Positions 10,622 to 34,902 of a stretch of DNA of 35,026 nucleotides are shown one piece after another. Every line of letters starts with the position of its first letter. The first letter of the stretch is position 1. Position numbers and translations under genes: made by a program. Source of the stretch: Limosilactobacillus oris DSM 4864 (lineage in GTDB: Bacteria > Bacillota > Bacilli > Lactobacillales > Lactobacillaceae); assembly GCF_001434465.1 (NCBI RefSeq), contig NZ_AZGE01000013.1, positions 10,501-45,526 of the forward strand, in the 5' to 3' direction. The notes beneath the pieces were generated by a model. The model ran no database searches, was not told the origin of the DNA, and worked only from the letters and a program-made list of their open reading frames with translations.

Positions 10622-10635
10622 CTGCAGCCGCCTCC

Positions 10636-16624: not shown

Positions 16625-16645
16625 GAGAAATCACCTCATTATTTT

Positions 16646-17644: not shown

Positions 17645-17659
17645 GCTGTGCACTTCCTC

Positions 17660-18355
17660 TTACATTCCTAACGTCAAATCAAATTCTGCATAATGACTAT
17701 AAATAACTTTTACCCTCTCGACCATTTCACCATTCTGATCATGAACGATCCCCTCTGCTTGTAGCAAGGCAGAATGTTCATCGCAATCGAGCAGCTTGGC
17801 TTCCTCTTGATTAGCCGACAAGGCAGACATCCGAAGGAGTGAAGTCGATGGGTAGGTCTTATATTCCTGCCGGATAGTTTCATACAGAGACTGCTTAGAA
17901 AAATCATAGCCGTTCAAACCGGGAAACCGTTGTAAGTCAAGTACTGACTCATCAAGGGTCATCGGGGTCAGATTTTGATCTGCTTTAATTAGTCGTAACC
18001 GGCGCAAAACATACAGCTCTCGTCCATTTTCGTGCTTAATCTCTGCCGAAATAATTCTGTTAACAGCGATAGCTCCAATTTGGCGAGCGTAGTCAGAAAA
18101 GCCTTTAAAGTTAAAGAGCTTGACTCTTGGCTTAGTCTGCCGGACAAAAGAACCCTTGCCTTGAACTTTTTCAATTAGGTTCATCTGTTCAAGGTCTTTT
18201 AGGGCCTTTTGCACCGTTGTCCGCGTGACATCAAACATTTTTGAATATTCTGTTTCAGAGGGCAGTTTATCCCCAGCCTTTCTATTAGTAAAAATATCAT
18301 TCTGAATTGCTGAAACTATTTGTGCGCGCAAGTTACCATTCCGATCTAAATACAT
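17660..18355 (-). CDS. GntR-family (HutC/UTRA-type) transcriptional regulator
   Basis: A 231-residue regulator. The ATG at 18355 is chosen because AAGGATGG lies just upstream and the winged-helix domain begins at once; the frame is open further upstream but that part lies over the promoter. Residues 8-72 are the GntR helix-turn-helix (AGDKLPSETEYSKMFDVTRTTVQKALKDLE) and wing (GKGSFV). The rest is a UTRA ligand-binding domain with YVLRRLRLIKADQNLTPMTLDES and VERVKVIYSHYAEFDLTL at the end. It stands 15 nt before the ADP-ribosylglycohydrolase-family gene, so it leads its own operon as YegW does beside yegTUV. It probably senses a phosphorylated product. A perfect palindrome over its own start of transcription is the likely operator. 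Confidence 0.92.
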   Translation of the reverse strand: MYLDRNGNLRAQIVSAIQNDIFTNRKAGDKLPSETEYSKMFDVTRTTVQKALKDLEQMNLIEKVQGKGSFVRQTKPRVKLFNFKGFSDYARQIGAIAVNRIISAEIKHENGRELYVLRRLRLIKADQNLTPMTLDESVLDLQRFPGLNGYDFSKQSLYETIRQEYKTYPSTSLLRMSALSANQEEAKLLDCDEHSALLQAEGIVHDQNGEMVERVKVIYSHYAEFDLTLGM

Positions 18356-18371
18356 TATTACCATCCTTACC

Positions 18372-18387
18372 ACTTGAGTACTCAAGT
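18372..18387. promoter_or_regulatory. GntR-type operator
   Basis: ACTTGAGTACTCAAGT is a perfect 16-bp palindrome starting two bases beyond the -10 box of the operon, so it covers the probable transcription start. Its position suits autorepression by the GntR-family protein. Confidence 0.75.
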
Positions 18388-18389
18388 AC

Positions 18390-18426
18390 ATGTTAACACC
18401 AATTTGTAGAATAGCAAGCGCTTTCT
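18390..18426 (-). promoter_or_regulatory. Promoter of the GntR/YegU-like operon with cre-like site
   Basis: On minus TTGCTA (18412-18417), 16 nt, TAACAT (18390-18395) preceded by TGT. The plus-strand AGCAAGCGCTTTCT (18413-18426) differs from the cre consensus only at its two outermost bases and covers the -35 box, so catabolite repression is plausible. Confidence 0.5.
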
Positions 18427-18498
18427 TGAGGTGGAAAAAATTAAAGTATAACAAATCCTTGTGGTCCCTATTAATAACTTCAGTAGTAAGTAGAATAT

Positions 18499-18533
18499 AA
18501 AAAAGCACCCCCTCAGAATACCGAGGGAATGCT
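18499..18533 (-). terminator. Minus-strand terminator upstream of the GntR operon
   Basis: AGCATTCCCTC, 8-nt loop, GAGGGGGTGCT and TTTTTT. It lies between the cupin gene and the GntR promoter and would stop minus-strand transcription coming from the IS-remnant side. No intact gene on that strand uses it. Confidence 0.6.
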
Positions 18534-18583
18534 GCATGTAAATTACATAATATAAGCAATACGAACAAAGCTATTCATTTGAT

Positions 18584-19230: not shown

Positions 19231-19572
19231 CTAAAAATAAGAGGCAAACTTTGCTTGTGGGTAAAGCCGAATTTCTATTGCCACCGTAGCCATCAAACAT
19301 ATGATTCCCCGGTAATTATCGTCAACTATCTTACCGACTGTGGAGCCAGCACAAGTATAGTAATAATAAAATATCGCCAGTTGATGGTTAATAAACTCTT
19401 TAACTGTTCCGGCTACCCAGAAATAGCTAATTTCATAAGCATCATCGAATACTTTAAAAGACGTTTCATCCATATGAACAACTGTTTCTTGGCAAGTTAA
19501 TTTTAATAGTCGTTGATACAACGGCTCTAGATAGACTTGACTTACTTTGATGATGCTGGCTGGTAACTGCAT
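19231..19572 (-). pseudogene. IS66-family transposase fragment (central part)
   Basis: A 113-codon minus-strand frame that reads SQVYLEPLYQRLLKL...VVHMDETSFKVF and later YFWVAG. IS66 transposases have an H-A-D-E-T catalytic motif at this point, seen here as HMDET, followed by a Y-x-W-V stretch. The end (ICLMATVAIEIRLYPQAKF) no longer matches, and there is no N-terminus or C-terminus in frame. It is a remnant and cannot be active. The 90 bases before it hold nothing visible. Confidence 0.7.
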
Positions 19573-19827
19573 CCTTTAAGCAATTCTAACACTTGCCATA
19601 GCCTAATTTAACGATGAAAAGGCTGCGCCAAATTAAATTTGTTCTCTGCAGCTTTAGCTAAAATTGAACTAAAAAAGTAACTATGCGTTATGAAGTGAAC
19701 CTCGTAAGCTGGATACTTTAATTTAGACAATTCTTTCCAAGGTAAGATTCCGACATTCAATCAGAGTCTTGCCTTTTAGTATGTAACTTATCCGATTTTA
19801 ATTGTAAGCAGTTATCATCAAGAAGTA

Positions 19828-20240
19828 ATTGAAAAATTTGAACAACACAATTGTTAATCAAGCTTTAGTTGATAGATTGTACGTTTGTTTAAGGGCAATC
19901 AGGCAATCACAAGGGCGATTCAAAGAAGCCATCAACAATGCGTTGAGATTAAAGGGACGGGTATATCGAATCCTTGAGAATGGTCAAGTTCCCTTAACCA
20001 ATAATTAGGTAGAGTCATCGGTCCAACCAGTTACTTTAATACGCAAGAATAGCTTATTTGCTAAAAGTAAAGCTTGAACACAAGCAAGTACGATTATCTC
20101 CACTAAGCTAAAACAATTAGATGTCTATAAGTATTTCAAGTACTTATTTGGCAAAAGGGCAAAAGAAGCTCAATTAGATTGTCATGAAATAAACAATGAG
20201 CGATTTTTTCAGCCCGTTGATATACCCCACCTTATATCGC
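19828..20240 (+). pseudogene. IS66-family transposase fragment (C-terminal part)
   Basis: One plus-strand frame reads AIRQSQGRFKEAINNALRLK, then YRILENGQVPLTNN. It continues through stops at 20006-20008 (TAG) and 20075-20077 (TGA) with LIRKNSLFAKSKA, TQASTIISTKLKQLDVYKYF and KYLFGK. This order (D-G-x-x-x-x-x-N-N, R-K-N-x-L-F, then Y-x-Y-x-x-Y-L-F) is the C-terminal signature of IS66 transposases. It lies on the opposite strand from the central fragment at 19231, so the element has been rearranged as well as mutated. The bases between the fragments are AT-rich with no feature I can name. Confidence 0.7.
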
Positions 20241-20249
20241 CATTAACTG

Positions 20250-20291
20250 GAAGAATATGAAAGTAGCCCGTGCCGTCTCCAGGCACGAGCT
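20250..20291 (-). terminator. Probable terminator of the DUF6020/GT2 operon
   Basis: On minus AGCTCGTGCC, a 7-nt loop and GGCACGGGCT give a 10-bp stem with one G-U pair, followed by a T-rich tail (ACTTTCATATTCTT). It lies about 140 nt beyond the last gene; the rest of that gap shows nothing clear. Confidence 0.5.
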
Positions 20292-20427
20292 GCTTAACAA
20301 CAAAACTTATTCGATTTTTCTTGACGAAAAGCCTACCATTATATGTCTATTCTAAGGAATAGTACATCATTATAATACTCATTAAAGATCTTCAACTACC
20401 TTCGAAAGTCATCCCACTAAAGCCTAA

Positions 20428-22110
20428 TCACTCACGCCTGCCATACTTTATCTGATAAATGGATAGACATAGACTGAGCATAAGGGGAATAGTGTACACA
20501 ACCGGATACAGATATCTTCTTCCTTCAAATAAAGTCGAAACAGGAGCGAGCCAACACCCTAATAAAATAGAAAGACCTAACGGAATAACACTAAGCCAAT
20601 AAAATTTTACCTCCTCTAAGCCCCATTTTCTCAAAAAAGTTGCAGTGATAAATAATGGCAAAACAGAAGCATATAAACCATATGAAAGTAGTAGCTGCAA
20701 AATAGGATTTTTATAAAGATTGTCAAAAACTGTTTGGACAGCCTGACTTGATTTTCTAAACTCTCCCTGTCTAACAGCTGCCGAAGTTGGTATTAATTTA
20801 GGATCTAACAAATTATGCCAATCCATCGACATCAATGGATCATATTCTGCAAACGAAAACCACCCAGACACCATCGCATTAAATGCTGCAATATAAGTCC
20901 GCGGATGCCGTCTACCCTCCTTAAACCAACTAACCAAATAATTCTTATATTGCTTATAATTGCCACGATCGGTATATCCCTTTACAGGATCCGCATTAGT
21001 AGGATTATAGACTTTCCCAATATTTTTACCATCAAGTAGGACGTTTATTGAGTTAAATTCCGCCTTTGTCACATCTTTTGAATGGTATTTAAAATACCTC
21101 GCAGTTTGTTGAAACGGAACCGAGAACATTTCTTGCTTCCCACTTGGCGCCACATTTAACGTTCTTTTTACTCCTGTTAAAAGGCCCAGTGCAATTATCA
21201 CGCTGCAAACCAGAGTAGCAATTGAATATTTCCTATACTTTGGGATAAACAGGTACACCGCTACCAACGAAAAAGTAACTATATAAATTCCAACCGATTT
21301 CGTAATAATGCAAAGAATAGCAAATAGACCAAGCAAGCTATCGTATTTAAAATTAGAAAATACCCGCCCTTGGGTTCGCAAAGCCTCAATAAATAGGATA
21401 ATGAAAATGACATAAATCCAAGAAAACAATGCGTCTTTAGAAATAGTTTGAGCACTGATTGGAAAGATCGGACACAATGCGTAAAACAGAAGCATCGCCA
21501 AAACATATCCCGATTTTAACTTCAAGTATCTATGAGCATAGTAGGTAGTCAGTGAAAAACTAAATGCCGTTAAAAGCTCTTGGACAAAAGAGTAAACGAA
21601 AAATCCTAACTGCCAATTGTCCAGTTTCTCACCAAAGGGGGTAATAATTGCACCCATTATTAGAGTATCAAAAATTGGATGATGATTTGAAAATACTCCG
21701 TCATGGTTTCCCTTATAAAAATACTGAATAAATTGCGCTAATTGTCCCCAGGTATCATTAATCAATGTCCCGGGATACAGAGCAATTATTATTGGTAGCC
21801 AAAACAATAGGATAATTACAAAAAACAACCATAAATTATGCTTACTGTGTAATATTTTATTCCAAGCATTAAATAGGCCGTTAAATTCACCTATATATAC
21901 CGGACTAATAATATTTCTAACTATTAGTCTTCTAGCAAAGTAATTAATCACACTCAAAACAAAAAACACTACTAAAACTGTTACTAAATATGAGGATGAG
22001 AAATCACAACTGCCGCTCTCAATATAATTAGGTGCGGCAACCATTGCTAACGCCAATAATAGGCAAAATATATAATCAGTTGCCCCAATAACTTTAATTC
22101 TATTATTCAT
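20428..22110 (-). CDS. DUF6020-like polytopic membrane protein, predicted GT-C glycosyltransferase (copy A)
   Basis: A 560-residue protein with some 12 membrane segments. A GT-C-type first outer loop follows the third segment: YPGTLINDTWGQ with Asp119 and Gln123, then N-H-H-P at 142-145. Further on it has ISKDALFSW, SVPFQQTARYFK near residue 335 and PTNADPVKGYTDR near 375, all shared with the three paralogs in this cluster. GT-C enzymes use a lipid-phosphate sugar on the outer face of the membrane, with an acidic residue in that first loop as catalytic base; applying this here is inference. GAGGGG precedes the ATG, and the gene lies 17 nt after copy B, so they are cotranscribed. It is the last gene of the operon. 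The coding sequence is notably AT-rich. Confidence 0.82.
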   Translation of the reverse strand: MNNRIKVIGATDYIFCLLLALAMVAAPNYIESGSCDFSSSYLVTVLVVFFVLSVINYFARRLIVRNIISPVYIGEFNGLFNAWNKILHSKHNLWLFFVIILLFWLPIIIALYPGTLINDTWGQLAQFIQYFYKGNHDGVFSNHHPIFDTLIMGAIITPFGEKLDNWQLGFFVYSFVQELLTAFSFSLTTYYAHRYLKLKSGYVLAMLLFYALCPIFPISAQTISKDALFSWIYVIFIILFIEALRTQGRVFSNFKYDSLLGLFAILCIITKSVGIYIVTFSLVAVYLFIPKYRKYSIATLVCSVIIALGLLTGVKRTLNVAPSGKQEMFSVPFQQTARYFKYHSKDVTKAEFNSINVLLDGKNIGKVYNPTNADPVKGYTDRGNYKQYKNYLVSWFKEGRRHPRTYIAAFNAMVSGWFSFAEYDPLMSMDWHNLLDPKLIPTSAAVRQGEFRKSSQAVQTVFDNLYKNPILQLLLSYGLYASVLPLFITATFLRKWGLEEVKFYWLSVIPLGLSILLGCWLAPVSTLFEGRRYLYPVVYTIPLMLSLCLSIYQIKYGRRE

Positions 22111-22127
22111 AAATGCTTCCCCTCTGA

Positions 22128-23927
22128 CTATAACTTTCTACCACTATAAATGCCATTAACCAGCGGCAAAATCAGTAAGCCTTCAACACTGACCAATGGT
22201 AAGACATACCGTAAGAGGATTACCGGACTAAACACTAGTAAAACTAACCAAAAGATAACCGGCATAATAAACATTGCCCAATAGTGCTTCTGCTTATCAA
22301 CGATAACTTTACCTAAACTAACTGTCAGAATAAAAAATGGCAGTGCCGCACTAAATAATAATGACACCAGCGGAATTTTCTCATAATATTGTCGATTAGA
22401 AAAAGCATCAACTATCTTCTTAAAAGATGGCAATAAACTTTTGCCAAAGGTTTGCCGAGGCTGATTAGGCAGTAACGATAGACTATGAACCTCATAGTAT
22501 GGTTCACCAAACGCTGACGTGTCCTTATTCATCCCTGGATACCATAGCTGGACAGTCAACCGGCTAAAGGCATTCACGTACTCACCTGGATGCTTTCGTC
22601 CAACAGCACAATATAATTTAATAAATTTCCATGGTTCCTGACGAACTGCTTCCGTATTAAAGGTCGTCTTTACCGGATCAGAAATTGCTTCGAACGGGCC
22701 ACGGTAATTGTCATAGTTAGGGATAAACCCTTTGACTTCTTTTAACTGTTCACCTTGGTAGTCATGCGGATGTCTAACTACTGCTCGCGCTATTTGAACC
22801 TCTGGAATACTTAACGATTCTTTAATAGCGTCGTCACGACTATTAGTGACTTTTAAGCTCGATAGAACCGGTCCAGAATATAGCATAAATACTCCGACGG
22901 TTATCATTGCCGTAAACAACAGGCGTCTACGACCATGCTTCAATAAACAGCACAGTATAATTATGGTCAATACATAGACATACATCGCCTGCTTGAGAAA
23001 GGCCATGCTCAAAAAGGAAATTACTCCAAAAACAACTACATTTTTCCAGTTGTTAAAATATTCCTTCCCCCAAGCAATTTTAATCACTTGAAGTTCTAAA
23101 ATAATAAACAGCGCTGTGAAAATCACATTCTTTGTTGTAGTTACCGCCATAATAGGATAAAACGGCAACAAGGCAAATGTTAGAAAGGAGCCCAGTGACA
23201 AAAGCAACGACCGAGAATACTTAGCAATAAATGCACTTACATCTGCCAGGGCAAACGATAGGACAAGTGTTTGAAAGAATGAATAGACTGCTGCTCCTAA
23301 CCACCATGGGCTTTTCAGTTTCCCGATGGTAACGCCCAACAAATACGTATGTAACACTGGATGATGGCTATTAATGTTATGAGTTAAAAATTCCCCAATT
23401 TGTCCTGGTCCATCGTATCCATACACGCTTGGGAAATAAGCGAGTAAATATGGCAACCAGCAGAGTAAAATCACTGCCCAAATAATTACCACCCCGCGCT
23501 TCGTTGAGGCAAAACGATTTATTTTAACAATCGCCTGCTCCTGTACTAAAGCGTCCTTAATGTGCAACGAAAACAAGGCACGAATTAGACCAAACCAGAG
23601 AGGCCAGATTAAAAAAATCCTTATACAGGTTAGAACCGAAAATACCCGTGCATCATCAAATAGCATCGTATTACGACCCCAAACCAGACAAATAGCAAAG
23701 ACTAAGGAAATAATCAGAGCTCCAATATCTTTCCTCCGGTTTCGCGCCAAAAATAAACAATGTTTTAACAGGGTATAGCTACCGCTAAAAATTACCAGGC
23801 TATAAATACTATTCCCTAAAACTGTCTTATCACTTGTCTTAATCGTCATTGCTATGCCAAATGTTGCTAACAAGGCTAGCAAAGCGGCTACTAATATTCT
23901 CTTACGTTTAGTTTTCAAATCTACCAT
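22128..23927 (-). CDS. DUF6020-like polytopic membrane protein, predicted GT-C glycosyltransferase (copy B)
   Basis: A 599-residue membrane protein with AAGAGGAAA before the ATG. It has about 12 membrane segments and the cluster's shared landmarks: FPSVYGYDGPGQ with Asp172 and Gln176, S-H-H-P at 187-190, TTKNVIFTAL, then SLSIPEVQIARAVVRHP and ISDPVKTTFN. It is the most diverged of the four in the S-x-P-x(2)-Q motif, with EVQ instead of xQQ. A 496-nt gap holding repeat copy 3 separates it from the GT2 gene upstream. A and B may therefore be a second transcription unit or read-through from the first. The substrate is unknown. Confidence 0.82.
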   Translation of the reverse strand: MVDLKTKRKRILVAALLALLATFGIAMTIKTSDKTVLGNSIYSLVIFSGSYTLLKHCLFLARNRRKDIGALIISLVFAICLVWGRNTMLFDDARVFSVLTCIRIFLIWPLWFGLIRALFSLHIKDALVQEQAIVKINRFASTKRGVVIIWAVILLCWLPYLLAYFPSVYGYDGPGQIGEFLTHNINSHHPVLHTYLLGVTIGKLKSPWWLGAAVYSFFQTLVLSFALADVSAFIAKYSRSLLLSLGSFLTFALLPFYPIMAVTTTKNVIFTALFIILELQVIKIAWGKEYFNNWKNVVVFGVISFLSMAFLKQAMYVYVLTIIILCCLLKHGRRRLLFTAMITVGVFMLYSGPVLSSLKVTNSRDDAIKESLSIPEVQIARAVVRHPHDYQGEQLKEVKGFIPNYDNYRGPFEAISDPVKTTFNTEAVRQEPWKFIKLYCAVGRKHPGEYVNAFSRLTVQLWYPGMNKDTSAFGEPYYEVHSLSLLPNQPRQTFGKSLLPSFKKIVDAFSNRQYYEKIPLVSLLFSAALPFFILTVSLGKVIVDKQKHYWAMFIMPVIFWLVLLVFSPVILLRYVLPLVSVEGLLILPLVNGIYSGRKL

Positions 23928-24129
23928 AATTTCCTCTTAATAATTGATTCCCTATTGGAAAAGCAAATACTTTTTAATCCCTCAAATTCTATTTTACATA
24001 TACTGAACAATAAATTTTCAACAAAATAATCAGCTCTAAGTTTAAACACTAATACTTATACTTACAAGACGAATTTATTATTAGGAGTACGATTTCAAAT
24101 TCTAAACCGATGGCTTGACTAATCGTAGG

Positions 24130-24388
24130 AAATCGGGAGTGGAAAGTGACTTCCTCGACAGGATGTATGACTAGCCAGTCACGTGTCAACTATCATATAG
24201 CCTTGCTCCGCGACGCTAGGTACTAGCCTATCCCCTGTGATTGCAACGCGAAGTTAGTCTTTATAGAGACTAGGCAAGATTTATTAACGTTTGACCTACC
24301 AGTCAGCTACTGCGTCGTTGCATTTTTATCTTTAAAATAGCTAAGAGGCTGAGTTGATTCCCAGCCTCCAGAATTATCCGCCGATTTC
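24130..24388 (+). repeat. Interspersed intergenic repeat, copy 3 (composite)
   Basis: The left part (24130-24240) is an inverted copy of 1109-1262. The right part (about 24285-24388) is a direct copy of 71-166, ending in GAGGCTG...CAGCCTCC. So it joins the two modules seen separately in copies 1 and 2. It fills most of the gap between copy B and the GT2 gene; the remaining 200 bases (23930-24129) are AT-rich without visible genes. Confidence 0.6.
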
Positions 24389-24423
24389 AAAATAGTAATA
24401 ACAGAAATATATCACCAAGTTGC

Positions 24424-25371
24424 TTAATCCTTGTTTTCTTTTTTCCAAGTTGCTTCTTGCAAACGGAATTCATATTCCCGCCGCTCTTTTCGTTGCAATG
24501 CGTCTAAGATTAAACCACTATAAAATGAAATAATTCCGGCAATAAAACAAAAGCCGCAAACGACCAGCGTTGGCATATTAAGAACCTTACCAGTATGTTC
24601 ATAGGGAATCCAAACGTTCGGTATAAAGAATCCGATTGACAAAATCGCCAACACTAATGCTAAGAAACTGAAAAACTGTAGAGGCTTGTAGTTTCGATAC
24701 AGGGTGAAAATCAACCGCAACACCTTAAAGCCGTCAGAATAAGTACTTAGCTTGCTGATACTACCCGCTGGCCGATCTCGGTAATCAATAATGTGGTTCT
24801 TAACTGCCAAGTTATTAACCGTTGCAAAGATACTCATTTCCGTCTCAATCTCAAAGCCGTGCGATAAAACAGGATACGTCTTTACAAAGTTATAACTGAA
24901 GGCTCGGTAACCAGTCATAATATCCTTAATATCCGTATCGAAGAAGAAATTAATACTGCCCCGTACGAGTTTATTGCCAATCCCATGGAAAGGACGCTTA
25001 TTTTCTGCGAAATAGCTCGAGCTTAAACGGTCACCAACTACCATGTCGTAATTGCTGTGGAGTACATACTCGGCCATTTTAGGAATTTCTTCAGCAGGAT
25101 AAGTATCATCTCCATCAATCATCACGTAGCAACGGGCTTCAATTTCACGGAACATTCGACGAATAACGTTTCCTTTCCCTTGCTGGTACTCATGTCGTAC
25201 GATAGCTCCTGCTTCCTGTGCTAGCTTAACAGTATTATCCGTTGAGTTATTATCGTAAACAAAAATAGTGGCATTCGGGATATCATTAATTGCCCGTTTA
25301 CAATCTTCAACAACTTTTTTGATGGTCTTTTCTTCGTTATAACACGGAATCAAAACGGCTAGATCAATCAT
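24424..25371 (-). CDS. GT2 glycosyltransferase, polyprenyl-phosphate sugar synthase type (CsbB/DPM-like)
   Basis: A 315-residue enzyme. Residues 4-13 (LAVLIPCYNE), D40-N-N-S-T-D45 and D86-G-D-D89 are the GT-A nucleotide-sugar and metal sites. MTGYRAF at 152-158 and ETEM at 176-179 are typical of dolichyl/undecaprenyl-phosphate sugar synthases. Two C-terminal membrane helices (about 232-252 and 267-289) anchor it. It should load a sugar from a nucleotide donor onto undecaprenyl phosphate at the inner face. The ATG at 25371 is chosen because AAGGTGA lies before it; it overlaps the stop of the upstream DUF6020-like gene by 8 nt. That coupling ties it to the GT-C-like proteins as donor supplier. 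Which sugar is used cannot be read from the sequence. Confidence 0.92.
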   Translation of the reverse strand: MIDLAVLIPCYNEEKTIKKVVEDCKRAINDIPNATIFVYDNNSTDNTVKLAQEAGAIVRHEYQQGKGNVIRRMFREIEARCYVMIDGDDTYPAEEIPKMAEYVLHSNYDMVVGDRLSSSYFAENKRPFHGIGNKLVRGSINFFFDTDIKDIMTGYRAFSYNFVKTYPVLSHGFEIETEMSIFATVNNLAVKNHIIDYRDRPAGSISKLSTYSDGFKVLRLIFTLYRNYKPLQFFSFLALVLAILSIGFFIPNVWIPYEHTGKVLNMPTLVVCGFCFIAGIISFYSGLILDALQRKERREYEFRLQEATWKKENKD

Positions 25372-27118
25372 TTGGTTCACCTTTTTTCTTTCCAAACTTT
25401 AAAATATACAAGTAATAAATTATTAACATAAAAGTAGCAAATACGGTACAGCCTGAGTAACGTACTAGTCCGTTAACCGGTGAGGCAATACAAATCAAGA
25501 GGTTCATAAATATCGGTATAATGGGAACGATAAACCGAAATCCATATTTTGTCCACATTAGCAGTGCCATCAACAAACATAACCATATTGCAATCGACGT
25601 ACTAAAGAAAATATTGATAAATGGAACTGTTCCAGCACTACCGATAATCTGAATAAATCTGTTTCGCACCTTGGCAGAAGTAACATAATGCATATGCAGG
25701 AAAGTCGGTTTAGCGTAATCTGCCATTGCACCACACCAAGTAAAATCAGGTGCCAGAATCCACGGGACATAATAACCATTTGTCCCTGCAAATGTTGCGG
25801 AGAGATAAACCCCTGGATGACGCAATCCCATATCTAACCATACCTTAGCATACTTACGAAGATTAAAATTTTTTCTTAGACTAAACTTCACCGGGTCAGC
25901 ATTGTTAGGAACATAAATTTCCCGGAGCTTTTCTGGATTCTTAAAAGTAGTTGCCAAAATATGCTTCTCATGGTTAGTAACATCATTGGGGTATGCCTTT
26001 AAATAACGTGCGGTTTGTTGTACTGGCAAACTAAGAGTCTCTATTCTTTCCGTCGGTGCAATATTCATTGATGGCAATGCCACTTTTATAAAACCAACAT
26101 AAACAGATACTACTATAGCTAATGATAATAAAAATCGTTTCCAAAATCTTCCTTTTTCCACAAAAATCAAGCAAAAAAGTGGTGGAGCTACCATATAGAT
26201 CCCATCATTTCGCCAAAAGCAAACTAGCAGACCAGAAATAATTAGGCCTGGTATCTTCCCCCCCCACTTTTTTCTAATCCCATTTGTATGCCCTATGAAG
26301 AGTTCAACACCGATCAACAATAGCACTGTTACGTACAGAGCAAATAAGGCCAGAAACATTCCGTCTTTATGCAGGGTTGTGCTTGCAAAGGACCAGTATG
26401 GTGCCAGTCCAACAAACAGTGAGCAGGCCACCGCGATTACCCTATTAACACCTAGCTTGGAAACCCGGGAAATACACCAAGAGTAAATTAAGGCGCAGAT
26501 TAACATCTGTATGCAGACATACAGAAATAAGCCAAAGTTATCGCCGCCAAGACACCTCCCCAAATTGAATACTTCACCCTCGAAGATTGTACTCAAAATT
26601 GGCTGATGATTATTCATTGGAATAGCCCCATAAAACTGTAATAACTGAAAATTACCATCCCCCGCAACGTTTCCTGGAAGAAAGGGGAGAAGGTATAGCA
26701 ACCAGCCTATTGAAATAATACTAAATGATTGAAGCCATGAAATTCCCTTAGATCTACCAATAATATTTTTAACAATGGAACATTGAATTAGTACCTGAAA
26801 CATCTTTTCAAAAAGAATGGTTAACCCAATTACCGCTAAAATCACTTCTACCAGCAACAGTTTATCCACTGCTCGATTCCTATAATCAATTACTTCCCAA
26901 ATAGTAACCACAGCTAAAAGAGCTGCAAAGGTGAAGCAAAAATACCCATTCAGGTATCGCCCTGCCAAAAGCGGTGTCTTTAATAACCAATAAGCTAATC
27001 CTAATAGCGGCAGATATAACAAGAAGTAAATATTATCAACGGTTATCTTTTGTAAATCAAGTACCAGCCATAGGCTAATTCCTACGATAAACAACTGCGT
27101 TAATTTCTTTATTCTCAT
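25364..27118 (-). CDS. DUF6020-like polytopic membrane protein, predicted GT-C glycosyltransferase (copy C)
   Basis: A 584-residue membrane protein. The ATG at 27118 is chosen: GGAGAAA lies upstream, and the stop of copy D (TAA) shares one base with this ATG, a translational-coupling arrangement. Landmarks are LPGNVAGDGNFQ (Asp154, Gln158), N-H-Q-P at 170-173, TLHKDGMFLALF, ETLSLPVQQTARYLKAYP and VPNNADPVKFS. The protein ends in a Lys-rich cytoplasmic tail. It is the closest of the four to copy A by motif wording (QQTARYxK, PxNADPVK), although the two lie apart. Confidence 0.82.
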   Translation of the reverse strand: MRIKKLTQLFIVGISLWLVLDLQKITVDNIYFLLYLPLLGLAYWLLKTPLLAGRYLNGYFCFTFAALLAVVTIWEVIDYRNRAVDKLLLVEVILAVIGLTILFEKMFQVLIQCSIVKNIIGRSKGISWLQSFSIISIGWLLYLLPFLPGNVAGDGNFQLLQFYGAIPMNNHQPILSTIFEGEVFNLGRCLGGDNFGLFLYVCIQMLICALIYSWCISRVSKLGVNRVIAVACSLFVGLAPYWSFASTTLHKDGMFLALFALYVTVLLLIGVELFIGHTNGIRKKWGGKIPGLIISGLLVCFWRNDGIYMVAPPLFCLIFVEKGRFWKRFLLSLAIVVSVYVGFIKVALPSMNIAPTERIETLSLPVQQTARYLKAYPNDVTNHEKHILATTFKNPEKLREIYVPNNADPVKFSLRKNFNLRKYAKVWLDMGLRHPGVYLSATFAGTNGYYVPWILAPDFTWCGAMADYAKPTFLHMHYVTSAKVRNRFIQIIGSAGTVPFINIFFSTSIAIWLCLLMALLMWTKYGFRFIVPIIPIFMNLLICIASPVNGLVRYSGCTVFATFMLIIYYLYILKFGKKKGEPND

Positions 27119-28965
27119 TATCTTTCTCCGTCCTTCTTGTAAAAACAAAGAATTAACAAAAGCGGATCAAGTACAATTAACGGTAATGTGTACCTCAAAA
27201 AACCATTAACTGGTGAAACTAAAGAAATCAATACCACCGCACCACCAACTAAAATTAAGTTTAAGTAGGCAAAGCGACGTTGGTCAATAATTGCCACGCT
27301 CGGCAGTAAATATAAAGCAAACCAAGTAAATGAAATAAATAGCCAATTTACTAACGGAAGTTCTGATCCCTTCTTGAGGAGGGTTGCAAAGCTGTAAAAG
27401 AGGTTAGGATTTTTCAAATGATAGTTGGCAAATAAACGCGTTACTGTCTCATTACCAGCATCATTCGGGCCAACAATCCATGAAAAGTACGAAGGGTGGT
27501 TCTGCGGATAAAGGTAGAAAATATTTTGACCAACAAGTGCTTCTAAGTAAAGGCGTTTGTTCTTCATTCCGATTTGCAGCCAGAGTTGCCAAAAGCTCCC
27601 CTTATCCTTCACAAATTGTTGGCTTTTATATAACTTCATCCGCTGTTGGTAGTCACCGACAAATTTATAATAGGGCCATCGTGAATTCACCTTAACACTA
27701 TCAGCAAATTCAGGATTATAAGCAGCGGCTATCTTTGAATAATTAAAGAAATGGTTTAACTGGCGTTTTTCACTTCGATTAAGCGATGCCGGATTATCCT
27801 TTGCTACCCGAGCTAATTGTTGCATAGGTATTGATAAGGACTCCATCGGCTCTGTCGGCAGCGCTTTAGTTACCATAGTCAATCCCTTGGACAACCCCAA
27901 AGTTAACAAGACCGCAACTAACACTGCAATAAAGATTTTCTTGCGCTGTTTTAGCCAGATAGAACCTAACGCAGCCAAAATCAGGTATACTACACCATCG
28001 TTTCGCGTTAGTGATAGTAAAACTCCACTAACTACCAGCAACCAGATTGCAAATCGGTTCTCAATGGTTGTCTGCACATCCAGAAGGAGTAATGCGGAAA
28101 TGAATAAAATAAAGAAGGCAACAAAGTATCCTGTCTTATCCAAACCATTTGCCCATTCGATGACTGCTGGGAATCCACCAAAAAATACAGCGAGAACAAC
28201 TGCCACATATTTATTAAAGTAGCAGGCTATGATTGTCACTAGTAAACTAAAACTTGCAATCGTTAATAGGTTTAAGAAAATGCTATTTAACAAAATCCCA
28301 GCATTAATTGAATGAAAACAGCTCAGACCAACTTTAACAAAAAATCCCTGAAGCAAAGTAGTAAAAAGCGGGTGGTGGTTAGTTAAACTAAAAACACCAT
28401 AAATCGTTTTCTGATGAAACAATTCATCCATCTGCCGCATCCCGTCATAACCAGCCAATCCAGGAATGGATACAACAAAATACGGCAACGCTAGGACCGC
28501 TAAGAGTAAAAAGATAAACAAATAAAATTTAACCTTGCCCTCTGCGTTTATTGGCATTTCTCGCAAATGAAACTTAATAGTTAACTGATAGACCGTCAAG
28601 AACAGGTAAAAGAGCAAAATTGAAATTGCTAGCCAAGATAGAACTGAATACCAAACGTCGCGGCCAGATTCCCAAATTAACGAAAGATTGCCACGCGAGG
28701 TATAAGCGCGGCCAATCACAAGGATAATCGAATATCCAAGAGCAATTACCGTATTAAGTAATAGCCCACGTTTACTAATCTCCAAATTCCGACTAAATAC
28801 GCTCATTATAATTAACAGTATCAATGCCGATAATATTGAGATAGCCGTCGCACCATCAAATGAGATCCGACTAGCATTACCGCTCGGGTAGTTAACTGCT
28901 GTCCCTAGCAACACTAACAGTGAACTAAATACTAATAAATACTTATTTAACTTAATCCTAATCAT
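27118..28965 (-). CDS. DUF6020-like polytopic membrane protein, predicted GT-C glycosyltransferase (copy D)
   Basis: A 615-residue membrane protein with GGAG 10 nt before the ATG. Landmarks are IPGLAGYDGMRQ (Asp174, Gln178), N-H-H-P at 196-199, GLDKTGYFVAFF, ESLSIPMQQLARVAKDNP and PEFADSVKVNSRWP. Compared with A and C it has the insertion between the Gln and NHHP like A, and lacks N-A-D-P (F-A-D-S instead). It is the first of the GT-C-like genes after the acyltransferase gene (24 nt) and overlaps copy C. Different motif details among the four suggest different sugar donors or acceptors. Confidence 0.82.
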   Translation of the reverse strand: MIRIKLNKYLLVFSSLLVLLGTAVNYPSGNASRISFDGATAISILSALILLIIMSVFSRNLEISKRGLLLNTVIALGYSIILVIGRAYTSRGNLSLIWESGRDVWYSVLSWLAISILLFYLFLTVYQLTIKFHLREMPINAEGKVKFYLFIFLLLAVLALPYFVVSIPGLAGYDGMRQMDELFHQKTIYGVFSLTNHHPLFTTLLQGFFVKVGLSCFHSINAGILLNSIFLNLLTIASFSLLVTIIACYFNKYVAVVLAVFFGGFPAVIEWANGLDKTGYFVAFFILFISALLLLDVQTTIENRFAIWLLVVSGVLLSLTRNDGVVYLILAALGSIWLKQRKKIFIAVLVAVLLTLGLSKGLTMVTKALPTEPMESLSIPMQQLARVAKDNPASLNRSEKRQLNHFFNYSKIAAAYNPEFADSVKVNSRWPYYKFVGDYQQRMKLYKSQQFVKDKGSFWQLWLQIGMKNKRLYLEALVGQNIFYLYPQNHPSYFSWIVGPNDAGNETVTRLFANYHLKNPNLFYSFATLLKKGSELPLVNWLFISFTWFALYLLPSVAIIDQRRFAYLNLILVGGAVVLISLVSPVNGFLRYTLPLIVLDPLLLILCFYKKDGER

Positions 28966-28989
28966 TATTAAATTCTCCAGCTATCTAAC

Positions 28990-30036
28990 TCACCGAATAG
29001 CAAATAATTTGCGTACAATCTTAAACCGAGCAAGGATGACCGTCGCTATCTCACATAATAATACCCGGTAAATATCTTGAATAATCCCAATGCTATTAAA
29101 TGATAATCCGAGTGCAGCCAGATGGTTTCCCAAAATGACTGTGTCCGTAAATACACTTAAACATACTAAATGGAAGGCTAATGTAATCAATGCTAACCGT
29201 CCCAACATCGCCAAACGGTGCATTGAAACACGCGTTTCAAGTACCTTGAATAGGTACATCAAAAAGTAGCTGCCACCAATGGCCCCCACCATTTTCAGAA
29301 CAGGATTGTCGGCATAGCCAGTATTAAACCAGAAATCACCTTTGAGTGCGGACCAACAGCACAAGACAAGTCCAATCACTGCCAGTACACTATTTCTGAT
29401 ACTTAAATCCATCAAATGGTACTCACGGATAATATGGCCAGCGGTATAGAAAGAAATACTCAGGAGCGCCGGCCCAAGTGACCAGGGAAGCTGAATAAAT
29501 GAACTCACTGCAAAAACAATTACTGCAAGAACAATACTGACCCCTACTAAGACACTGGTTTCTTTATTACGGCTAAGCGTATCGGTCACTTTACGTAAAA
29601 GCTGATAGATAATATTCCCAAAATACATTGCCAATAGGAACCACACTGCTCCGATTGCAGGAATCATAATTCCTCGAAAAATCGTTTGATTACTAGGCGT
29701 ACCAATTCCATACAGAGCAGCGATAAGGTAATGATACCAGTGATCCGTCGTTATCATTCCTGGAACATGACGATGCAAGCTGATTAACGAAAGAAGAAAG
29801 ATGATTAAGGCCGTGACACCATACGGAACCAGTAATGTTCGTATCCCGGCCTTAGCAGTCCGAACAATCGTTTTACGTCGTGTTAAATAACCAGATAGGA
29901 CAAAGAAAATTGGTACATTAATCGCATATATTAGGTGCTGCCAAAAGCCTGCAGTATAGGTATGACCTACAATTATTAGCATCATACTTACTGCACGCAC
30001 ACAATCTATCCATTCAATTCGTTTCCGACTGCTCAT
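28990..30036 (-). CDS. Acyltransferase-3 family membrane protein
   Basis: A 348-residue protein with about ten membrane segments. The N-terminus RIEWIDCVRAVSMMLIIVGHTY carries the conserved R-x(10)-H of acyltransferase-3 (here Arg14 and His25). NVPIFFVLSGYL follows at about 40-51. Such proteins O-acetylate or otherwise acylate sugars of surface polymers from the cytoplasmic face. GGAGGAGA precedes the ATG. It begins only 12 nt after the prfC stop codon, so it is read from the prfC promoter or a site within prfC. In this context it likely decorates the glycan built with the DUF6020-like and GT2 enzymes. Confidence 0.88.
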   Translation of the reverse strand: MSSRKRIEWIDCVRAVSMMLIIVGHTYTAGFWQHLIYAINVPIFFVLSGYLTRRKTIVRTAKAGIRTLLVPYGVTALIIFLLSLISLHRHVPGMITTDHWYHYLIAALYGIGTPSNQTIFRGIMIPAIGAVWFLLAMYFGNIIYQLLRKVTDTLSRNKETSVLVGVSIVLAVIVFAVSSFIQLPWSLGPALLSISFYTAGHIIREYHLMDLSIRNSVLAVIGLVLCCWSALKGDFWFNTGYADNPVLKMVGAIGGSYFLMYLFKVLETRVSMHRLAMLGRLALITLAFHLVCLSVFTDTVILGNHLAALGLSFNSIGIIQDIYRVLLCEIATVILARFKIVRKLFAIR

Positions 30037-30048
30037 TTAGTCTCCTCC

Positions 30049-31629
30049 CTATAACTTCGCCGTCAGCTTCACATCCGGGTACTTCTGCTTGAACCAGTTT
30101 TCGGCAAACTGGTTTTCAAACAGGAAGAGTGGCTGGTCGTGGATGTCCTTGACCAGGATGTTCCGCGAAGATGACATCTTTTCGTCCAGCTGTTCTGGGT
30201 CGATCCAGCGCGCCGTCTTGCTCCCCATTGGTTCCATGACAACATCCGAGTTGTACTCGTTCTTCATCCGGAACTTGAAGACTTCAAACTGCAGCTGACC
30301 CACGGCCCCCAGGATATAGTCATTAGTCGTGTAAGAACGGTAAAGCTGGACAGCCCCTTCCTGGACCAGCTGGTTGATCCCCTTGTGGAAGGACTTCTGC
30401 TTCATCACGTTCTTTGCCGAAACCCGCATGAAGAGTTCCGGTGTAAACTGCGGCAGCTTCTCAAACTTAACGTCCTGCTTACCGGTGTAAATCGAGTCCC
30501 CAATCTGGAAGTTCCCCGTATCGTACAGGCCGATGATGTCCCCGGCAACCGCGTTTTCGACGTTTTCCCGGGTATCTGCCATAAACTCCGTCACGTTTGA
30601 CAGGCGAAGCGGCTTCTGGGTCCGCTCCAGGGTAACGTCCATCCCCCGGTCGAACTCACCCGAACAGATCCGCACGAAGGCGATCCGGTCCCGGTGCCGC
30701 GGGTTCATGTTAGCCTGAATTTTAAATATAAAGCCAGAGAACTCTGGCGCCAACGGCTTGATGACCTCCCCGTCTTCTGTCTGGTGTTCACCCGGTGCGG
30801 GGGCAAACTGGAGGTAGTTCTCCAGGAAGGTCCGCACCCCGAAGTTAGTTAGGGCAGAACCAAAGAAGACTGGAGTCTGGTAACCCTTAGCAATCTTGTC
30901 CCGGTCCAGTTCATTACCAGCAACTTCCAGGAGCTCCATCCCGTCCAGGGCGTCTTGCCATTCACCATCGCCAGCCAGCGGGTTGTCACCCATAACGTTG
31001 CCATCTTCATCCAGCGGCAGGTAGGGATTCTCCGGGTCCGCTGGGTGGGTCAAAGCAACCCGGTGGTTAAAGCGGTCGTAAATCCCCTTAAACTGGTGAC
31101 CAGATCCGATTGGCCAGTTCATCGGGTAGGTTTCGATTCCTAAAACATCTTCAACTTCGTTTAGGAGGTCAAGCGGTTCCCGGGCGTCCCGGTCGAACTT
31201 GTTCATAAAGGTAAAGATCGGAATCCCCCGCATCTTACAGATTTGGAAGAGTTTCTTGGTCTGCGGCTCGATCCCCTTGGCGGAGTCGATCACCATGACC
31301 GCGGAGTCCACGGCCATCAGTGTCCGGTAGGTATCTTCGGAGAAGTCTTCGTGCCCCGGGGTATCCAAAATGTTGATTCGCTTACCCTGAAAGTCGAACT
31401 GCATGACGGAAGAAGTGACGGAGATTCCCCGCTTCTTTTCGATTTCCATCCAGTCGGACTTAGCAAAGTTACCGGTCTTCCGGGCTTTAACGGTCCCAGC
31501 CTCGCGAACTACGCCCCCGAAAAGAAGGAGCTGTTCGGTAATCGTCGTCTTCCCCGCGTCCGGGTGCGAAATGATGGCGAACGTCCGCCGCTTATTCACT
31601 GCTTCAGCAAGCTGTTTTGGTGACATCAT
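30049..31629 (-). CDS. prfC: Peptide chain release factor 3
   Basis: A 526-residue translational GTPase that recycles RF1/RF2 from the ribosome after peptide release. The P-loop SHPDAGKTT is at 21-29. Switch elements RGISVTSS and DTPGHEDF follow, then NKFD; the C-terminal RF3 domains include [18 protein letters not shown] and [12 protein letters not shown]. The length fits the family (about 520-530). The first of two adjacent ATGs (31629) is chosen, with AAAGGAAA 8 nt upstream; an upstream in-frame extension to 31662 has no such site. The gene is GC-richer than the downstream cell-surface genes with which it appears cotranscribed. Confidence 0.97.
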
Positions 31630-31672
31630 CAGTATTTTCCTTTCATATTTAAAATTGCGCAATATCTTTTAT

Positions 31673-31701
31673 ATTTTAAGATATTCTGGGACGTAAAGCA
31701 A
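31673..31701 (-). promoter_or_regulatory. Promoter of prfC
   Basis: TTGCTT (31696-31701), exactly 17 nt, TAAAAT (31673-31678), 44 nt before the start codon. It is the only clear promoter found upstream of prfC, the acyltransferase and copies D and C. Confidence 0.55.
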
Positions 31702-31805
31702 TTGGCCGTGCGGTTAAATCACCGGTATTATTATAACGATTCCGGCTAATAATAGTGACTTTTTCAGGGAAAGAGCCCATTTTTCAACTACCGTCCACCT
31801 AATGA

Positions 31806-31935
31806 AAATGAGGCTAGGAATTAACTTAACCTCTTTAATATTTTAAAGTTAGTAATGCCTCAGCGCAGTAGCTGGCTGGCAGTTCAAATGCTGATAAATC
31901 AGCGTTTGACCAACCTAGCCATCCTTGCGGAGGTT
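31806..31935 (-). repeat. Interspersed intergenic repeat, copy 4
   Basis: The minus strand matches 60-177 with few differences, including GCTGATTTATCAGC, the stretch CAGCTACTGCGCTGAGGC and the terminal hairpin. It sits between prfC and the LTA-synthase-like gene, just past a stronger terminator. Confidence 0.75.
31811..31842 (-). terminator. Terminator-like hairpin of repeat copy 4
   Basis: On minus AGAGGTTA...CTAGCCTC then ATTTTC. It is weaker than its counterpart at 143-177 because of substitutions on both arms. Confidence 0.4.
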
Positions 31936-31945
31936 CGAAGACAAA

Positions 31946-31982
31946 CGCCCCAAATCAGCTTGCTGGTTTGGGGCGCTTTTTC
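31946..31982. terminator. Terminator of the LTA-synthase-like gene
   Basis: CGCCCCAAA (31946-31954) and TTTGGGGCG (31967-31975) form a perfect 9-bp stem. The T-tract is best on plus (CTTTTTCTC) but the minus side (TTTGTCTT) also suits, and the only adjacent gene reads on minus. Confidence 0.7.
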
Positions 31983-31996
31983 TCACTCTCTAGTCT

Positions 31997-34902
31997 CTAC
32001 TTCAAATATTTCAACGTGTATTTCTTGCCCGCAGTGACGTCATACTGGACGAGACGGTAATCTTGTAGCAACTGCTTTTGCTGCTTAGTCAAGCTGCTTT
32101 CCTTGACCAATTTGCCCTGACTATTGATAAAGTCAGTGTGGGCTACTGTGCCGCCAGTATTACCATCATCATCTGCCTTGACGTTTTTAGCCATCGCTGG
32201 GAGCTTTTCAAAGACGTCTGTTAACAACGCTTGATACCAGGTAACCTTGGAATTAGTCTGTTTGGCAACCATAGCAATAAAGTCGTTGGGACTTACTACC
32301 GCCGTGCCTTGCTTAAAGTTCTTCGCACCATGGGCCCGAGCATACTTATTAGAATAGATAAAGTACTCGGTCTCGTGCAATTTCACCCCATCCTTTGCCA
32401 TGTCATTCTGGTAGATTCCCGGCAAGTGGTCACCGTAAAAGACAATCGTAATCGGCCGGTTAATTCCATCAATCTGCTTGATAAACCGCTTAACGGCGTT
32501 ATTGGTATAGTGAATCTCTGTACTAAATTCATTAACTTCGTCGATCTTCGTTCCCTTGGAGACACTAATAGCATTATACCGTTTAAGATGGTTATAACGG
32601 TGATCAGAATATGGAAAGTGGTTTTGCATGTAACTAAGTTAATAAACTGACCATGTGGATATGACCGCAACTGATCGATAACGTTTTGATATGAGGTTTG
32701 GTCTGACAAGTATGGACTCCTGTCAATTCGATGCTGATGTCTAATCTTATCCTTGCTCCCTAAGTAGAGAAACTTATCAAAGCCAAATTTTGGATAGACA
32801 CTTGTCCGGTTGTAAAAAGTACCGATATAAGGATGGATGGCCACCGCATGATTAAAGCTATCCACAATGGAAGGGTTAACTTTTAGCTTGCCAACTAACT
32901 GTGTATAAGGAACCGGAAGCGTTGGCGAAAAATTGCTGACACTATAACCAGTTAGCGTCATGTATTCCATGTTGGCCGTTCCTCCACCGTAGCCAGAACT
33001 AATCATCGTTCCCCCGGTATTTTGTTGTTGTATTTTTTTAATCTCCGAAATCGGACTATTTTTCAGATTAACACCAGGAACCCTACTAGGATCAGAAAAG
33101 CTTTCGTTAAGGTTAAAAATCACCGTCTGCCGTTTTAAGTCATTATGACGGTAACGGTTCACTACTTGCGCTTGTGATTGGTACTTTTTAACGATTTGTT
33201 CCATTCTAGCCTTTGAATACCCTGATGGTTTATCCATAATTTTAACATCAACGTTATTCATAAACTGAACCAGTGGGCCGTTAGTTCGAGCACCGCTCAG
33301 TTGATTATAAAACATTGGCTTATCATCTATAGAGAGCAGCAAGTTATTAATTGGTGTCCCCGCATGATTCCAAAAAACACAACTGCCAAACAGGATTGGG
33401 GCTAAGAGAAGGTATCCCCACCGCTGACGGCTTTTAAATCTCAATTTAACTGGATAATGCTTTTCTAACCAGTAAATCGCAACAATTAGAATTGCGATCC
33501 CGGTTATTACCCCCACCCAAAGAATAGGGCTAACCATTCCAAACAAACTACCGGCAACCTTTACCATTGATAAATCTACCGGCAGAACTGGCTCATTACG
33601 GGCAGCTATCTTTTCCCGATTAGCAATCACGAAGGCTGCGTTGATAAAAATAATCAGTGCCAAGCTGAACCAGTATCGATTACTAATTGCCTGAATAAAC
33701 TTAGTCGCTGAAAAAAGTAGTAAAGTCGTTAAAAGTAACAATAACTCGCGTTGAGTAAATACATAAGAAAAAATATTATGATATTTGCCAGCACTAATTA
33801 GCCAAGTATTATTCATTAAAAGCATCGATGCCGCCGCAATGGCATAAGAAATAGCCGCCACCAGCAGGTTAGGCCCATACCTTTTAATCAAAGCTGCTCT
33901 CTCCTGCTTAGTAAAACTTAAAGCAGTAGTGGTACTAATCCATTGGTTAATTGCTCTTACTTTAGGAGTAGTTAAGAGCCACCACCATAGTCCAGCAACC
34001 AACAAATAAATGCTAATCGCACTAAGGGCTAAAGCACCCGTTGCAACCGTTGAATGACTTATCGGCTTTCTTTCTGCAATTGCATATACCACCGCAAAGA
34101 CTGAGCTATTAGATAAAAATACCATTACTGACAATGGATAACTAATTGCTGGCTTGCTTATCTGTTGAATTAATAATTTGGCAAAAGAATACGCCGCTAA
34201 TACTGTAAAAAGGTTTGTAACTACTGTGAAACGGTTAATAGTGGTTCCGTCATAGCTTAAAAACGGAATCAAGCCTTGACAAAGAAAATTAATGACTAGG
34301 CTCCCCAGTCCTACAAGCCCCCACCTGTAATTATTTGAATGTCCAAGGTTTCCACCAAGAACAAATAAACATGCATAGAAAAGGGTCAGAAAGTTATCAT
34401 TCCATCCCCAGATATTTACCGGTGTTAAAAATGGCAAAGCAATTAACAGCCAGATAATTCTTATTAGCCGTTGCGGAACCATTCTCTGCTGCGTAGGAAA
34501 TAAACTTGCAATAATCAGTCCTCCCATCACTCCTGTAATTAATGGGTAGGAGTTCCGCAAAATTGGCAGCATACTGTTAAAAATAGTAATCGGGTAGTAG
34601 TTGATTCCATTATCCGTCAACGCAATTGCTAAACTGAGTAGACAGCCAAAGACTGCCGTGTTTAACCATATTTTAACTACTAACGCTTTCTTATCTACCC
34701 GGTTATAAAGAAAATAGCCTAATAAAAGCACTAACAAGTCAGGCCCAATAAGAGTTAGCCCTTTAATAATTAGATAGACACTAGTACGAATGTTAGCCGC
34801 ATTGTGTTCAGTTATATTTGGCGTCAAGTTCCAATAAACTTGAGCAAAGCCTGCCCAAAATAATACTAAACCCCAACTTATCTTATTTTTCAACCCTTGC
34901 AT
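31997..34902 (-). pseudogene. LTA-synthase/phosphoglycerol-transferase-like protein with one frameshift
   Basis: Read across a -1 shift near 32630 this is one protein of about 968 residues. The N-terminal ~500 residues have a dozen or more membrane segments, far more than the five of canonical LtaS. An extracellular alkaline-phosphatase-like domain follows: IFNLNESFSDPS, then SSGYGGGTANMEYMTL, where Thr is the likely nucleophile as in LtaS. After the shift come MQNHFPYSDH and FYGDHLPG (metal-binding Asp-His). The reading frame breaks at HGQFINLVT / MQNHFPYS. Restoring a single A in GTTACATGC would rejoin the frames. AGAGGAA precedes the ATG. It would transfer phosphoglycerol or a related group to a surface polymer. 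The shift is either a true mutation, which loses the metal site, a phase-variation event or a sequencing error. Confidence 0.85.

Follow-up and report, generated by a model that had tools for sequence, protein, structure and literature searches.

A candidate gtr-type glycosylation cassette with one GT2 enzyme and four DUF6020 proteins in Limosilactobacillus oris DSM 4864

What could four large membrane proteins of the DUF6020 family do beside a single family 2 glycosyltransferase (GT2) gene? The question is raised by a 35,026-nucleotide stretch of L. oris DSM 4864 (contig NZ_AZGE01000013.1, positions 10,501 to 45,526), called the window throughout this paper. Read along the minus strand, its block 20428-30036 begins with an acyltransferase_3 gene, followed by DUF6020 copies D and C and the GT2 gene; after a gap of 496 bp come copies B and A (Table 1). 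We consider it likely that this block is a gtr-type extracytoplasmic glycosylation cassette with one donor enzyme, the flippase GtrA and four C-type glycosyltransferases (GT-C). This confidence is a joint one for the whole explanation and includes the proposal that the four transferases were gathered from separate DUF6020 lineages behind one conserved donor enzyme, with no local duplication. The predicted fold, the linkage and the co-occurrence are taken from data; for donor synthesis, flipping, transfer and acceptors we infer the following course. As its homologs suggest, the GT2 would load undecaprenyl phosphate with one kind of sugar at the inner face of the membrane, and a single chromosomal GtrA, encoded elsewhere, would flip the lipid-linked sugar to the outer face. 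The DUF6020 proteins, acting as GT-C enzymes, would each transfer that sugar to a different acceptor site of the surface glycopolymers, and the neighbouring acyltransferase probably O-acylates the product.

Predicted fold and sidedness of the DUF6020 proteins

An earlier reading of the same DNA from its letters alone (the sequence-only reading) had described four polytopic proteins of 560-615 residues with common motifs and had proposed them as GT-C partners of a GT2 with two C-terminal helices. The description holds, since all four large open reading frames (ORFs) pass the Pfam cut-off for DUF6020 (PF19484). The D-x3-Q motif begins at D119 in copy A, D172 in B, D164 in C and D174 in D, and after 15-23 residues comes [N/S]-H-[H/Q]-P; all four copies also have S-x-P-x-x-Q-x-A-R and D[P/S]VK (in A, NHHP at 142, SVPFQQTAR at 330 and DPVK at 374). 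The Asp154 first reported for copy C is the residue called D164 here; the lower number was counted from an internal ATG, the higher one from the upstream TTG of the ORF list. The ordered motif pattern was found in 4/4 copies and in none of 80,000 shuffles, but just 2 of the 46 other DUF6020 proteins have it, so it is partly tailored to these four and describes them better than it describes the family.

Structure models were made for copies C and B, and both have a GT-C transmembrane core. In the VIA structural comparisons, GT-C-fold proteins, as judged by entry titles, make up all 50 entries listed for copy C and the first 42 of the 50 listed for copy B, with protein O-mannosyltransferases as the top matches; the best Foldseek match of copy C is ArnT (E 6e-3, probability 1.00). 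Copy A would share the GT-C fold through its membership of the DUF6020 family. The loops of copy C were assigned to the inside or outside by alternation of the model helices, which places 23 Lys/Arg among 73 inside-loop residues vs 24 among 238 outside-loop residues. The loop that holds D164 (residues 157-202, the first outer loop, following core helix 138-156) has one Arg and no Lys. D164, K261, E370, Q378, D418, K421 and R563 all lie in outer segments or outer helix ends of copy C, as do all ten columns that are invariant in a first alignment of 25 DUF6020 proteins. On these models the conserved Asp would face the outside in the first extracytoplasmic loop, and it is a candidate catalytic residue. 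The sequence-only reading had named an arrangement unlike GT-C and motifs facing the cytoplasm as results that would speak against it; neither was found.

Conservation was counted over 61 proteins, namely a 50-protein set, also used for the tree below, and 11 further copies. Of the 24 Clostridia copies in alignment A5, 13 are in the 50-protein set and the other 11 are the added ones; the 50-protein set omits G208 (broken), L039, L041, L040, L031, L038 and the split copies in L049 and L055. In copy C numbering, P158, K261, R563 and Y564 are invariant, D164, D418 and K421 (Gln in L090) are each kept in 60/61 proteins and E370 in 58/61, while Q168 (51/61) and R381 (only 31/61) are looser. These counts bear on the alternative that some copies are accessory, acceptor-binding proteins or dead paralogues and that only one transfers sugar. 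A review speculates that some GT-C systems require a second protein for acceptor recognition (PMC8035078). However, all four window copies retain six conserved residues (D164, K261, D418, K421, R563 and Y564), their ORFs are open, and copy B appears to be under purifying selection, with a dN/dS of ~0.08 (dS near saturation) against its orthologue in L190, so that it is probably maintained as functional. No close orthologue for the same test of copies A, C and D was present among the compared DUF6020 proteins. We therefore regard a single active copy as unlikely.

Proposed donor enzyme, flippase and acceptor

The GT2 has two C-terminal hydrophobic segments, as the sequence-only reading had stated. 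Its profile matches the solved dolichol-phosphate mannose synthase (DPMS) 5mlz (E 1.1e-13), and it scores 190.8 bits against TIGR04182 (AglJ), under the cut-off of 325; it is predicted to be a membrane-linked enzyme of the DPMS/GtrB kind. DUF6020 was detected in 27 of 201 sampled Lactobacillaceae genomes, and in 20 of 24 Lactobacillaceae neighbourhoods a GT2 of the window subfamily lies within 1 kb of it (one neighbourhood per genome, the window included; G065, G068, G189 and L031, the second short contig of G165, are uncounted). Within the genus, DUF6020 and the GT2 each occur in 14/50 genomes and the two lists are identical, an agreement with a chance of 1 in 9.4e11 if the genomes were independent, which they are not. 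Together with the fold of the two modelled copies, this linkage upholds the assignment of DUF6020 as the GT-C partner of the GT2. In a sample of the phylum, DUF6020 matches were found in 8/398 genomes, 5 of them above the cut-off; since few candidates were scored for each genome, copy counts there are lower bounds (three rather than four for the window's own genome).

In a GT2 scan of named genomes, the best 80 of 579 relatives come mostly from Lachnospiraceae and are 58-78% identical; 22 of these 80 loci have a DUF6020 gene no more than 3 kb from the GT2. The Clostridia loci, found with the GT2 as bait, are biased towards GT2-linked DUF6020, a bias from which the Lactobacillaceae figures are free. 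Among the best 80, 36 large polytopic GT2 neighbours from loci with no adjacent DUF6020 were scanned with Pfam. They gave DUF6044 (7), DUF6077 (2), DUF2142 (2) and DUF6056, GtrII and YfhO (1 each); nine matches fell into acyltransferase, MBOAT, Polysacc_synt or transporter families. Several neighbours matched no family. Several of DUF6044, DUF6077, DUF2142 and DUF6056 belong, we assume, to the GT-C clan. In L184 a PMT_2-like protein of 515 aa (9761-11308; E 2e-4, below the cut-off) stands between DUF6020 and the GT2, giving a mixed GT-C pair with one GT2. Based on these neighbours, DUF6020 seems to fill the slot that other GT-C transferases occupy beside the donor enzyme.

A single GT2 should yield a single lipid-linked sugar, so the "multi-sugar" system of the sequence-only reading is unsupported. 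In a true multi-sugar system, each DUF6020 copy would take a different lipid-linked sugar from other GT2s. The genome does contain further GT2 genes, one of which, in a polysaccharide region (L044:5336-6265), also has two hydrophobic segments; however, they match the window GT2 at only 23-28% over part of its length. Copy C moreover overlaps the GT2 gene and D overlaps C, and DUF6020 and the GT2 share the same 14 genomes, all of which makes separate donors improbable.

The sequence-only reading had also noted the lack of a flippase, which is correct for the locus; a total lack is ruled out by a single GtrA gene in the genome, on a contig other than that of the GT2 and beside an ORF that we take to be a flavodoxin. 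GtrA was found in 44/50 genus genomes, mostly as a single match, and in 14/14 of those with the system. In all eight genomes that have both genes on one contig it lies 7.6-36 kb from the GT2; in the other six, the window's genome included, the two are on separate contigs. In L050 and L106 GtrA, GT2 and DUF6020 are contiguous, and GtrA falls inside the same fetched neighbourhood in 11/24 family loci. The own genome also encodes two YfhO-family proteins (L180:9961-12597 and L181:9904-12822). The stretches fetched around them contain no window-type GT2, and the one GtrA gene may serve both of them.

Several observations weigh against the cassette as proposed here. The models of copies C and B were built from 29 and 27 sequences; Foldseek gave no match at E 0.001, and TM-scores to GT-C entries were just ~0.25-0.36. 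The outer loop 90-95 (RNRAVD) of the N-terminal extension of copy C has two Arg, contrary to the positive-inside rule, and D164 is replaced by Glu in one of the 61 relatives (L125). No sequence link was found between DUF6020 and YfhO by hhalign (probability 3.6%, E 0.012), or between the DUF6020 profile and PDB sequences, where the best match (E 0.044) is a G protein-coupled receptor. DUF6020 occurs with no window-type GT2 in 4/24 family neighbourhoods (L039, L040, L041 and L058; the contigs of L040 and L041 are <5 kb). Conversely, in 58 of the best 80 loci of the GT2 scan the GT2 lacks a DUF6020 neighbour at 3 kb or less, so the ties of this GT2 family are not confined to DUF6020. GtrA is also present in 30/36 genus genomes without this GT2, and its use by the system is for that reason put forward only conditionally. 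Finally, a hairpin in the 496-bp gap suggests that copies B and A may form a second transcription unit of their own, although it is weak evidence alone, with 15 terminator-like sites in 19500-32000 vs 10.6 expected from shuffles. 

Membership of DUF6020 in the YfhO/GtlB family (PF09586) was ruled out by the hhalign comparison, and a Pfam scan of the four copies gave DUF6020 only and no YfhO match. YfhO proteins do have D-x3-Q near the N-terminus (20/20), which is an analogy only; the common motif was dropped as proof of kinship because the profile comparison makes no link. L039:8732-10957 (741 aa) and L041:16-2277 (753 aa) encode divergent DUF6020-like proteins that have a longer N-terminal membrane part and no window-type GT2 in the stretch fetched.

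Three-component systems, and one flippase serving several pairs, have already been published (PMC8035078). In Listeria monocytogenes 4b, GttA is required for galactose on wall teichoic acid and lipoteichoic acid (PMC8035078), and GttA, GtlB and GttB with GtcA resemble the proposed cassette in having one GT-A synthase, one (predicted) flippase and multiple GT-C enzymes; Listeria has two GT-C enzymes as against four in the window, and the single comparison of DUF6020 with the YfhO family gave no sequence link. Mycobacterial arabinan is built by several GT-C arabinofuranosyltransferases fed by one lipid-linked arabinose (PMC11127046), likewise one donor with several GT-C enzymes; the donor route (phosphoribosyl), the GT-C proteins and the phylum differ.

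To what, then, would the sugar be attached? In L046 the GT2-DUF6020 pair lies among genes for Wzz, a Wzy-like protein (below the cut-off), a sugar-phosphate transferase and Glf, and L056 has a Wzx-type gene, which suggests a polysaccharide acceptor; in the own genome a region with Wzx-type, Glf and sugar-phosphate transferase genes lies on the GtrA-bearing contig. A cell surface polysaccharide is the most likely acceptor, and surface proteins are possibly acceptors. A different possibility is that the DUF6020 proteins use the undecaprenyl-phosphate sugar directly to polymerise or branch a homopolysaccharide, with one enzyme per linkage. Several transferases on one donor would suit chain and branch linkages, and in Lactobacillus johnsonii FI9785 the GtrA-GtrB pair (241-242) is needed for the branched glucan EPS1, with no transferase reported nearby (PMC7117936). 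That pair resembles the proposed system in serving the surface polysaccharide of a lactobacillus; it differs in that GtrA adjoins GtrB. Heteropolysaccharide-type genes around the pair in L046 and L056 argue against homopolysaccharide building, and 11 of the 14 system genomes have one intact DUF6020 and one more a broken copy only, for which decoration with single residues is a simpler fit. We find direct polymerisation improbable.

The acceptors might instead be secreted surface proteins, modified in the manner of protein O-mannosyltransferases (PMT) or PgfM, such as adhesins with a KxYKxGKxW signal. The rank of protein O-mannosyltransferases as best structural matches would favour this, but rank among GT-C structures says nothing on the acceptor. 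In 10/14 genus genomes (e.g. L184, L183 and L062), where 0.94 would be expected (P 1e-9), the GT2 has a KxYKxGKxW signal no more than 10 kb away, and this P value is too small because surface genes cluster and the genomes are related; a 17-kb radius was picked after the distances had been seen, and 5 and 10 kb are fairer. In the own genome the nearest such signal is 16 kb from the GT2, and in other genera (L046, L056) the pair sits in polysaccharide clusters. In Streptococcus mutans, PgfS, PgfM1, PgfE and PgfM2 include a GT2 and two multi-spanning partners, PgfM1 being assigned to PMT_2 (PMC5856776); the window GT2 is weakly similar to the PgfS model (35.5 bits, cut-off 500), and that system, unlike the one proposed here, glycosylates proteins and has an epimerase gene. 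Protein acceptors are thus rather unlikely in our estimate. Within the window, 5771-8302 (minus strand) encodes a KxYKxGKxW-signal protein with a C-terminal YkuD L,D-transpeptidase domain.

As for the acyl group, Pfam identifies acyltransferase_3-DUF6020 fusions in L038:5736-8648 (970 aa) and L063:12484-15414 (976 aa), and L061 encodes a 970-aa protein with the length and N-terminus of the fusion protein. Together with the acyltransferase beside copy D, these fusions suggest that O-acylation and glycosylation may target one polymer.

Origin of the four copies

The sequence-only reading had taken the locus for a fourfold expansion. Four copies are indeed present, and four is the highest DUF6020 number in the genus search (11/14 genomes have one match without inner stops, another carries two, and the sole copy of G208 is broken into two pieces). 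It is also the maximum among the 201 family genomes, where the four matches of G142 include two pieces of one split copy. A search of the own genome found no fifth copy. Expansion by recent tandem duplication is, however, ruled out by identity, tree and AU test. The other window copies are 23-25% identical to copy C. In the 50-protein tree the window copies stand at four places, B with L190, L184, L189 and Limosilactobacillus alvi, and D with L182 (29% identical) and L049 (32%); the branches of A and C are long and their exact placement is unsure. The AU test rejects a single clade of the four (p 2.7e-95), and the window label needs four changes on the tree, at least three of them forced by starred branches. 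The donor enzyme behaves differently: in the genus set, which includes L084 (L. alvi) and omits G208, the median pairwise identity of the GT2 is 77.7% (72.0-97.1, 14 proteins) vs 19.2% for DUF6020 (14.5-84.8, 18 proteins).

The site of the cassette is partly shared. The prfC gene directly adjoins it in 6 of the 13 genus loci seen (the window, L060, L186, L187, L188 and L189), and does not in L059, L062, L182-L185 and L190. The other five species with the prfC site have one DUF6020 each: the proteins of L060, L186 and L188 belong to one lineage and that of L187 to a second, while the L189 protein is related to copy B. The G+C content of the block is 38.5% vs 48.0% in 152,723 bases of the own genome, and the only 9.6-kb stretches that are equally G+C-poor (5/156) overlap the block itself.

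In Shigella flexneri, gtrA and gtrB are conserved and interchangeable and gtr(type) is variable (PMC3259042). The window resembles these gtr cassettes in its conserved donor enzyme and highly variable multi-spanning transferases, and differs in that Shigella has one gtr(type) with gtrA and gtrB, whereas the window has four DUF6020 transferases and gtrA elsewhere. We tentatively suggest, at somewhat less than even confidence, a combinatorial decoration locus, in which a constant synthase, often beside prfC, collects unrelated DUF6020 GT-C enzymes that place one sugar at several sites. If this is true, the locus would correspond, in a Gram-positive and stacked form, to the phage serotype-conversion cassettes, and the acyltransferase-GT-C fusions would be additional modules. 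Under the swapping model, surface glycans of these lactobacilli could diversify while one donor enzyme stays constant. A literature search for DUF6020 and PF19484 found no paper. Judging from searches on these names and on Limosilactobacillus or Lactobacillus with GT-C or Gtr, the GT-C fold of DUF6020, its tight association with a single GT2 and the grouping of four unrelated copies in a cassette seem to be new. DUF6020 thereby gains a predicted fold and a likely role, and becomes a candidate family for the missing transferases of lactobacillar GtrA/GtrB systems, e.g. that of the L. johnsonii glucan.

Gene layout and neighbouring genes

Table 1. Features of the cassette and its flank (window coordinates)
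Feature	Position	Strand	Basis
DUF6020 copy A, predicted GT-C transferase, 560 aa	20428..22110	-	PF19484 E 7.8e-45
DUF6020 copy B, predicted GT-C transferase, 599 aa	22128..23927	-	PF19484 E 1.7e-17
Intergenic stretch GT2/copy B, 496 bp, terminator-like hairpin at 24369-24344	23928..24423	-	sequence and scan
GT2, DGD at residue 94, predicted polyprenyl-phosphate sugar synthase (GtrB/DPMS-like)	24424..25395	-	PF00535 E 2.4e-22
DUF6020 copy C, predicted GT-C transferase, 594 aa from TTG or 584 aa from likely ATG	25364..27148	-	PF19484 E 6.8e-51
DUF6020 copy D, predicted GT-C transferase, 615 aa	27118..28965	-	PF19484 E 8.7e-41, motifs
Acyltransferase_3 (OafA-like O-acyltransferase)	28990..30036	-	PF01757 E 4.1e-22
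prfC (release factor 3), flanking housekeeping gene	30049..31662	-	RF3_C E 2e-43

The overlaps of GT2 with C and of C with D, on which the sequence-only reading had remarked, are real, although the longer ones of the ORF list are partly an effect of the start codons. With ATG starts the C/D overlap is 1 base (TAATG) and the GT2/C overlap 8 bases (ATGATTGA). Since the overlaps persist, translational coupling of GT2, C and D is still likely. The acyltransferase gene lies 24 bp upstream of copy D, and the two are probably in one operon. The gap between prfC and the acyltransferase gene is only 12 bp (30037-30048), so the cassette may use the prfC promoter, and prfC is possibly co-transcribed with the acyltransferase; prfC marks the insertion site and is outside the glycosylation system.

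Just past copy A lies an IS66 transposase fragment (19231-19572, minus strand; Pfam), and ORFs near the cassette in L188, L060 and L047 look like IS66, as we presume from their first residues. On the other flank, an LtaS/phosphoglycerol-transferase-like sulfatase gene (31997-34902, minus strand) is broken over two frames, with profile positions 1-169 in one ORF and 172-299 in the next, an apparent frameshift or sequencing error. LtaS-like genes are also present near GT2-DUF6020 in L052, L056 and L057. Further along the window, an operon-like set at 14371-18568 (minus strand) encodes a GntR/UTRA regulator, an ADP-ribosylglycohydrolase, a purine/cytosine-type permease and a PfkB kinase, and perhaps serves nucleoside salvage.

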